A DNA stretch of 64,000 bases from contig JAJDYI010000004.1 in the NCBI GenBank assembly GCA_022825235.1, forward strand, positions 62,001 through 126,000, written 5' to 3'. How positions within the stretch are numbered: position 1 is the first letter of the stretch; every line of letters begins with the position of its first letter. Below the pieces are notes generated by a model that saw only the letters and a list, made by a program, of their open reading frames with translations, did no database searches and was not told the origin of the DNA. This stretch comes from Alphaproteobacteria bacterium (GTDB lineage: Bacteria; Pseudomonadota; Alphaproteobacteria; TMED109). The translations under genes and the position numbers were made by a program. This document shows positions 23,956 through 31,596 of the stretch, one piece after another.

Positions 23956-23991
23956 CAACCTCCTTCGGCGCATGCTGAGGAGGCTGGCGCC
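23956..23991 (-). promoter_or_regulatory. Shine-Dalgarno sequestration switch in the metF leader
   Basis: In the RNA, CAGCCTCCT (23978-23986) is complementary to AGGAGGTTG (23956-23964) over nine positions with one G-U, giving a hairpin with a 13-base loop that hides the ribosome site of the leader frame. A competing 5-bp stem pairs GGCGC (23987-23991) with GCGCC (23967-23971) and would leave the ribosome site free. The two helices cannot form together as a simple fold. This resembles an expression platform; no known riboswitch aptamer was recognised. Confidence 0.4.
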
Positions 23992-24028
23992 CGTGATTGC
24001 CGTTTGGCCACATCTCCCTGCCGGGAAA

Positions 24029-24075
24029 CCACCTTGCACGGGCTGCAGGTTGGTGGGGTGCGTCAACCCCTCAGG
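24029..24075 (-). promoter_or_regulatory. Structured 5' leader hairpins upstream of metF
   Basis: Between the candidate promoter and the ribosome-site switch the RNA can fold a GGGGT/ACCCC hairpin. A second hairpin has outer CCACC/GGTGG (24052-24056 with 24029-24033) and inner TGCA/TGCA around a GCCCG loop. A small TCCC/GGGA hairpin follows. Eye-folded only. It could be the sensing part of a metabolite- or protein-controlled leader. Confidence 0.3.
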
Positions 24076-24086
24076 ATGCAGTGACG

Positions 24087-28160: not shown

Positions 28161-28238
28161 CCTTCGGGCGGAGCTGGTGCGTGGAACCGGCCCCCAGTGC
28201 TATTTCCGTTCCTGTCCACCCATACCCCGACCCATGCC

Positions 28239-30389
<2,151 letters not shown>

Positions 30390-30402
30390 GAGGCGGGCGG
30401 GG

Positions 30403-31596
30403 GTGGCGCACGACCTGCAGGTGGTAGTCGCCATCTTCGTGCCGCTCGCGCTGGCGTGCGCGATCGGGTGGATCATCTACGGGCGCCGGCTGGCCGCCCG
30501 AGGCGCCGCCGCTGGCCCGGCGGCGAAGCCCGCTGGGAACGGCGCGGCAGCGCGGTCAGAATCAAATGCTTCCTTGCCGGCCGCCGCCGCCCCGTCACCG
30601 GTTCGGGAATTGGCGGACGCTATTCTCAGCGGCCAGCGACGCGCGCTGTCCCGCGGGATCACCCTGGTTGAATCCGGTCATCCACGCGACCGGGCGGCGG
30701 CGGCCGGGTTGGTGCAGGCCGTCTTTGCCGACGCCGGCGGAGCCATCCGGATCGGAATTTCCGGGCCGCCGGGGGTGGGAAAGTCGACCTTTGCCGAGGC
30801 GATTGGGCTTCACGCCATCGCGCAGGGGAAACGGGTCGCGGTGCTCGCGGTGGATCCTTCCAGCACGATTTCCGGGGGCTCCATTCTTGGCGACAAGACC
30901 CGGATGGAACGCCTTGGCCGCTCCGACAGCGCCTACATCCGGCCCAGCCCTTCGGGTGGGCTACACGGCGGGATTGCGCGGGGCGTGCGCGAATCGGTTA
31001 CGCTTTGCGAGGCAGCCGGCTTCGACGTTGTACTGATCGAGACTATGGGGGTCGGCCAGGCAGAACTCGCCGTCCGCGAGGTCGTCGACCTGGTTGCCCT
31101 ATTGGTGCAGCCCGGTGGCGGCGACAACCTGCAGGGCATCAAGCGAGGCATCGTGGAGATTGCGGACTTCGTCCTGGTTAACAAGGCGGACGGCGATCTG
31201 AAACGGCCGGCGGACCTCTCTGTCGGCGAGTACAAGCGGGCCCTGCGGCTGATGTCGCCGCCCTCGGAGAGCTGGCGGCCCGAGGTGTTCGCGTGCTCTG
31301 CCGTCGAAGGAACGGGCATCGACCACGCGTGGGCCCGCATCGCGGCGTTCGATGCTGCGACGACGAAGGACGGGACCCGAGACAGCGCCCGTGCGCGGCA
31401 GGCGGCGGACGCCGTCTGGGGCTACGTGAATCTCGCGCTGCGGGAAGCCCTCCAGGAAGTGCGCGCGGAGCCCCAGTCGCCCGCGGCCGGCTGGGAGGCC
31501 GAAGTTCGCGCGGGCCGCATGGCACCCGCGGCGGCTGCCATCACGCTGCTTGACATGGTGCGCGATGGAAGAAGCCTGAGCGGAACACCGAAGTGA
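30403..31596 (+). CDS. meaB: Methylmalonyl-CoA mutase chaperone GTPase MeaB with N-terminal membrane segment
   Basis: G3E-family GTPase that loads and protects cobalamin in methylmalonyl-CoA mutase. The core shows P-loop GPPGVGKST (121-129), DPSST, ETMGVGQ and NKAD. Before the normal MeaB start (about residue 68) there is an additional region: a hydrophobic helix at residues 7-26 (VVVAIFVPLALACAIGWIIY), then GRRLAAR and an Ala/Pro-rich linker. This looks like a membrane anchor with the GTPase on the cytoplasmic side. The GTG start is supported by open frame and composition only. A later start would give an ordinary soluble MeaB. Confidence 0.88.
   Translation: MAHDLQVVVAIFVPLALACAIGWIIYGRRLAARGAAAGPAAKPAGNGAAARSESNASLPAAAAPSPVRELADAILSGQRRALSRGITLVESGHPRDRAAAAGLVQAVFADAGGAIRIGISGPPGVGKSTFAEAIGLHAIAQGKRVAVLAVDPSSTISGGSILGDKTRMERLGRSDSAYIRPSPSGGLHGGIARGVRESVTLCEAAGFDVVLIETMGVGQAELAVREVVDLVALLVQPGGGDNLQGIKRGIVEIADFVLVNKADGDLKRPADLSVGEYKRALRLMSPPSESWRPEVFACSAVEGTGIDHAWARIAAFDAATTKDGTRDSARARQAADAVWGYVNLALREALQEVRAEPQSPAAGWEAEVRAGRMAPAAAAITLLDMVRDGRSLSGTPK

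Follow-up and report, generated by a model that had tools for sequence, protein, structure and literature searches.

One of the closest known relatives of the protein studied here is MeaB from Methylobacterium extorquens (PDB 2qm7, 2qm8, 4jyb, and 8dpb), with which it shares the whole core, the P-loop, the gating residues of switches I, II, and III, and a methylmalonyl-CoA mutase as partner (accessible sections of PMC9974510). MeaB is a dimer, the protomers of which rotate by 180 degrees between the inactive and the active state, as described in the accessible text of PMC9974510 and PMC10481361; eight gating residues, namely D92, D105, R108, E154, Q160, D182, Q185, and K188, appear in the accessible part of the former either in the active state or as mutated positions. 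In M. extorquens MeaB nothing corresponds to the anchor and linker reported below, and the anchored MeaB, for its part, displays altered residues near switch II. IcmF is likewise a G-protein chaperone with a related G domain that is tethered through a fused segment; there, however, the chaperone is fused to the mutase (accessible text of PMC10481361), while our locus encodes the mutase separately and joins the chaperone to a hydrophobic helix instead. Human MMAA (2www, 8gju) has the family and the fold in common with the anchored MeaB. Unlike the latter, it is a mitochondrial protein. The segment at its front is a targeting peptide and not an anchor. CooC of Rhodospirillum rubrum is said, in the title of a 2001 paper, to be a membrane-associated nickel-insertion protein; in being an NTPase metallochaperone with a reported membrane location it resembles the anchored MeaB, from which it differs in metal and enzyme.

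A survey of the open-access literature by title and opening of the abstract, a set outside of which most subscription papers lie, yielded no membrane-anchored MeaB among the matches listed, also under the name ArgK. The accessible sections of the papers on MeaB and MMAA structure, including PMC9974510 and PMC10481361, contain the word “membrane” once or never, and never with regard to the chaperone. In the accessible part of the review PMC9164220, the membrane passages concern other proteins, among them CooC, and the MeaB passages in that of PMC7689651 are free of any mention of a membrane. With its predicted anchor, the protein described here is a new architecture in a well-known family, of which the MeaB core and the pairing with a mutase were already known.

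The window, i.e., the whole stretch of 64,000 nucleotides that was analyzed, carries meaB at 30403..31596 on the forward strand. The open reading frame, its profile matches, and the genus alignment define a product of 397 aa with a GTG start, a TGA stop, and a predicted N-terminal membrane anchor. Directly upstream lies scpA (28239..30389, forward strand), encoding a methylmalonyl-CoA mutase with a B12-binding domain (NF006944, 1218 bits; PF01642; PF02310) and hence the likely client; its start was taken to be an ATG inside a GTG-started ORF (28197-30389), and profile searches were run from the second codon. The scpA stop and the GTG of meaB are 13 bases apart, and this spacer includes a GAGG resembling a ribosome-binding site (30390..30393, forward strand) 9 bases 5' of the GTG. 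All seven genomes of the genus, our own included, share the GTG start, show a GAGG 5-9 bases ahead of it, and have a mutase match immediately 5' of meaB on the same strand and contig. In our genome, one MeaB exceeded the family cut-off, two further matches stayed below threshold, and scpA was the sole mutase match. The five neighbors of meaB that were analyzed revealed no B12 transporter and no evident membrane partner.

The seven genomes form a natural comparison, each with a single mutase and a single anchored MeaB; the exception is genome G004, which has a second pair. The second MeaB-like chaperone of G004 (L024/L268, contig C84) belongs to the same family and adjoins its own mutase, but it is only 42% identical over residues 60-336, and its likely ATG start leaves no hydrophobic segment, as judged by eye. 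It lies between a putative CoA-ligase-like gene and the second mutase, an arrangement similar to that of 2-hydroxyisobutyryl-CoA mutase loci.

The MeaB core begins late in the product. NF006958 matched from residue 65, TIGR00750 from residue 77, and PF03308 from residue 82, and residue 9 of M. extorquens MeaB (8dpb) aligned to residue 68, so that about 66 residues precede the core; the first-pass annotation, made from the sequence alone, had counted about 67. They comprise a predicted transmembrane helix at residues 7-25 (VVVAIFVPLALACAIGWII; 30421..30477, forward strand), a positively charged flank at residues 26-33 (YGRRLAAR; 30478..30501, forward strand), and a variable Ala/Pro/Ser-rich linker with in-frame indels at residues 34-66 (30502..30600, forward strand). 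The same three elements had been discerned in that annotation, which described a clean hydrophobic helix of 20 residues, positive residues after it, and an Ala/Pro/Ser linker, and our results agree with it on each. None of the 19 helix residues has a charged or strongly polar side chain, and the mean Kyte-Doolittle value of the helix over 19 residues (KD19) was 2.74, compared with 1.42 for the best stretch of the core; across the seven genomes, the helix reached 2.46-2.75. On the octanol scale, it summed to between -8.2 and -10.3 in the seven proteins. No Lys or Arg stands before the helix in any of them, and two or three follow within the next 15 residues (three in the window protein); the same 15 residues also hold acidic residues, three in L004-L007 and one in L003. 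According to the positive-inside rule, a positively charged flank stays in the cytoplasm, which is where the mutase and GTP are found as well. Since Lys and Arg occur only after the helix, an N-out/C-in orientation with a cytoplasmic core is predicted.

Structure prediction with AlphaFold2 gave a helix at residues 2-35, a segment with a pLDDT under 50 at residues 37-61, and, starting at residue 66, a folded core. The anchor helix was modeled with moderate confidence (block means of 61, 67, and 70 over residues 1-30), and two parts of the core (152-164 and 187-190) also fell below 50. The underlying alignment held 33 sequences, i.e., the window protein, L031, and 31 other loci from the best 80, and two of these carry the anchor. 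Residues 1-70 matched no Pfam family at E-values up to 10, a search in which the HMMER filters drop most weak matches, and in the PDB residues 1-66 found a single match at the same limit, a pilin (E 0.027, residues 5-42). With no Pfam match and only this weak pilin match, the idea that some known small membrane protein had become fused to the core was rejected. A repetition of the anchor elsewhere in our genome (G000) was also dismissed, as only one match appeared at E-values up to 0.01.

The architecture of anchor, linker, and core was found in all seven genomes of the genus, with MeaB matches beginning at query residue 1 or 2, and the helix region follows the consensus M-x-x-D-L-x-x-V-x-A-I-F-x-P-L-A-L-x-C-x-I-G-W-I-x-Y-x-R. 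Among the named records, the MeaB of L031 (JAJDWH010000036.1) was the one to match along the entire protein, at 81% identity to the window protein. Every indel in the linker has a length divisible by three. By contrast, gaps of 2 bases in L003 and 4 bases in L004 occur in the spacer that separates scpA from the GTG, which means that conservation of the frame begins at the GTG. The spacer gaps in these two genomes break the frame 5' of the GTG and rule out a start upstream of 30403, and a frame error or chance ORF was dismissed in view of the conservation in seven of seven genomes and the in-frame indels. The conservation check proposed in the first-pass annotation therefore turned out in favor of the segment, which is kept in frame, with no frameshift, in all seven.

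Between the two subclades of three and four genomes, dN/dS was 0.34 for residues 2-34, 0.41 for residues 35-66, and 0.12 for residues 67-397, so the anchor is constrained, though less than the core, its value being about three times that of the latter. In the close pair L001/L003, pN of the anchor (0.072) equals pS (0.07), the substitutions there being few. Residues 2-34 were also evolved neutrally to 45% divergence in 20,000 simulations, all with one descendant and one assumed base composition. Of these, 38% gained a stop, a KD19 of 1.6 or more survived in 3.7%, and one of 2.46 or more in 0.04%, 2.46 being the lowest helix KD19 among the seven proteins.

Residues 67-397 (30601..31593, forward strand) form a complete MeaB core of the G3E-type GTPases, as evidenced by profiles, PDB alignment, fold, and gating residues. 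The curated cut-offs were exceeded (PF03308, 308.2 vs. 23.1 bits; TIGR00750, 288.1 vs. 240.75 bits; NF006958, 400.4 vs. 329 bits), and the best PDB matches of the predicted model were MeaB chains (E 4.5e-29). The eight gating residues of M. extorquens MeaB are all kept at an offset of 59 (D151, D164, R167, E213, Q219, D241, Q244, and K247); these residues of switches I-III are invariant in 115 of 115 other MeaBs. As they are retained, and as the genome displays a sole MeaB and a sole mutase, the anchored MeaB is most likely its working chaperone.

The core departs from the family at 8 of the 84 positions conserved to at least 95% in 114 other MeaBs, namely I131A, L188H, V191I, T195V, V215M, S220A, M227V, and F231V; when each of the other MeaBs was left out in turn, the median was one departure and the highest number five. 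None of the seven MeaBs of the genus carries, at any of the eight positions, the majority residue of 31 others (position 131 holds A in three of them and S in four), and all but one of the eight positions surround switch II, from residue 188 to residue 231. In switch III, all seven have N at residue 242, which is E or D in 114 of 115 others. On the nucleotide level, the changed near-invariant core residues 131-242 correspond to window positions 30793-31128. An altered working of the core is suggested by these changes at conserved positions in the same genus, although anchor and altered core are, as read from the alignments, tied by co-occurrence and not visibly by cause. ScpA departs as well: of 308 highly conserved positions, 13 are changed, five of them in the B12-binding half (A607S, P619G, S643T, K649L, and Y680H, counted from the second codon); other mutases showed a median of three, and 1 of 21 equaled or exceeded its number, the comparison set being those 21 of 79 loci with a mutase match of at least 600 residues.

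Outside the genus, the most upstream in-frame ATG, GTG, or TTG was allowed as start and a KD19 of 1.6 served as threshold. None of the 79 MeaB loci from other named genomes, which are the best-scoring of at least 590 relatives and not a random sample, reached this value, the highest being 1.52 (L065). Among other alphaproteobacteria, 1 of 135 distinct MeaB genes did so (L155, genome G201, KD19 1.95). This candidate is likely spurious, given that an ATG lies 11 residues ahead of its core and that L202 from the congener G296 fails the test; the hydrophobicity of L155 probably reflects read-through of a non-coding stretch. The class sample comprised 385 genomes, 204 of them with a MeaB match, and loci were drawn from among the matches listed; 136 of 137 could be located (L231 fell out), and L015 is the same as L173, leaving 135 distinct genes. 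Of the 136, 51 could not pass, since their core was preceded by fewer than 19 residues or by no start codon, and 4 extended up to the edge of the sequence taken. A search with residues 1-70 over the 385 genomes found four members of the genus and 11 weak matches in other genera (E 0.0015 to 0.0095), 6 of which contain internal stops. As far as tested, the anchor, as recognized by its hydropathy, thus appears restricted to one genus of uncultured alphaproteobacteria.

Within its own order (28 genomes), a MeaB match was found only in the seven genomes of this genus. The other 21 gave none, and just 3 of these combine a completeness of 90% or more with a contamination of 5% or less. Without a near outgroup carrying MeaB, the order offers no way of tracing where the anchor came from. 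The seven other genera of the order, with no MeaB match, have genomes of 0.8-1.7 Mb, those of this genus measuring 2.5-3.8 Mb.

In our opinion, it is probable that an uncleaved signal anchor tethers the MeaB core to the inner membrane on its cytoplasmic side, where B12 loading and repair of ScpA would then take place. Some other readings of the segment have to be weighed against this. A TTG codon (Leu58; 30574..30576, forward strand), found in all seven genomes, may serve as an alternative start, giving either two products, the anchored one from the GTG at 30403 and a soluble MeaB of 340 residues from 30574, or the soluble form alone. Among 30 invariant Leu columns, that of Leu58 alone is written as TTG throughout the seven genomes, and it sits in the fast-changing linker about where ordinary MeaBs begin. 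A single invariant TTG column out of 30 may be due to chance, however, and six of the seven genomes have no Shine-Dalgarno-like match 5' of this codon (L003 shows AAGG), whereas GAGG precedes the GTG in all of them. A product that is soluble only is harder still to accept than the pair, because the segment upstream of TTG58 is conserved, evolving as in-frame coding sequence and keeping its hydrophobicity. Altogether, a start at this TTG seems quite unlikely. The first-pass annotation had named initiation near 30600 as the case against its reading: the GTG and its GAGG are kept in seven of seven genomes, while the invariant TTG at 30574 leaves room for a second, soluble form.

As for the helix itself, it could serve for docking or oligomerization, packing against the mutase or another MeaB instead of entering the membrane, and residues such as C19, G22, and W23, kept in all seven proteins, go beyond what hydrophobicity requires. 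Docking helices are normally amphipathic, though, and the 19 uncharged residues, the octanol sum, the Arg only on the C-terminal side, and the long variable linker together are what one typically sees in a signal anchor, which renders such a role highly improbable. The kept C19 within the hydrophobic stretch could also recall a lipoprotein or cleaved export signal, but the first six residues contain no Lys or Arg in any of the seven genomes, the A-L-A or A-L-V before C19 misfits the lipobox motif, and hydrophobic residues go on after the cysteine; moreover, an exported MeaB would meet neither GTP nor the mutase, and we regard a signal of this kind as practically out of the question. Finally, the helix may be a real anchor without a specific role that was fixed by chance in the ancestor of the genus, a reading that overlaps with the one we prefer. 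The presence in a single genus, a dN/dS above that of the core, and five neighboring genes without an evident membrane partner fit with this. A useless helix should decay, on the other hand, and hydrophobicity survived in just 0.04% of the simulations; in addition, the core of the same genus departs from the family at conserved positions. We therefore consider a helix without function unlikely.

Returning to a MeaB held at the inner membrane, a single uncleaved N-terminal signal-anchor helix (N-out/C-in) would tether the protein to the cytoplasmic face, and the linker of about 35 residues would give the dimeric GTPase room for its 180-degree rotation. The tethered MeaB would then grip the B12-binding domain of ScpA, the product of the gene just upstream, and both the loading of AdoCbl and the removal of damaged cofactor would occur at the membrane. 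ScpA would have to visit the membrane or be held there, as the sole MeaB found serves the sole mutase found. Membrane anchoring of MeaB, as claimed in the first-pass annotation, is borne out as far as a conserved anchor-like segment that others mostly lack can speak for it, the localization itself being deduced from sequence. Its proposal that mutase repair is placed at the membrane may fairly be inferred from the only MeaB, the only mutase, and the kept gating residues. If the helix is inserted, B12 loading and repair of methylmalonyl-CoA mutase would happen at the inner membrane, and such a chaperone, anchored by nature, would demonstrate that the loading and repair of a cofactor can be confined to one place in the cell.

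Most speculatively, the anchor might shorten the path to the mutase from membrane-bound cobalamin import and, where CobS is present, likewise from membrane-bound cobamide assembly. One could tentatively go further and suppose, as a possibility we rather doubt, that the anchored MeaB with its remodeled switch-II region takes AdoCbl from membrane import or assembly and loads the mutase there, so that activity would be spatially gated. In any case, the protein allows one to ask whether cobalamin passes directly from membrane systems. CobS is a polytopic integral membrane enzyme according to the accessible text of PMC8092220. It was found in four of the seven genomes, our own included, and CbiB in three, our own excluded, in drafts that are 92-97% complete, so that absence is no proof. 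A tie of the anchor to CobS or CbiB was not upheld, as the anchor is present in all seven. A tie to a membrane-bound decarboxylase was ruled out, profile searches for OAD_beta having given no match in any of the seven genomes. Given that CobS, CbiB, and OAD_beta do not track the anchor, a coupling of the anchored chaperone to B12 supply is a conjecture.

The PF01923 adenosyltransferase was detected in six of the seven genomes, including ours, and its reading frames display no hydrophobic N-terminus by eye. Genomes G001, G003, and G005, drafts of 93-96% completeness, gave no CobS match despite having mutase and MeaB, and owing to this lack may rely on imported cobamide. Within the 64-kb window, no cobalamin riboswitch reached the gathering score; a SAM-I/IV riboswitch was recognized at 23983-24084 on the reverse strand, scoring 56.1 bits (gathering score, 41.1).
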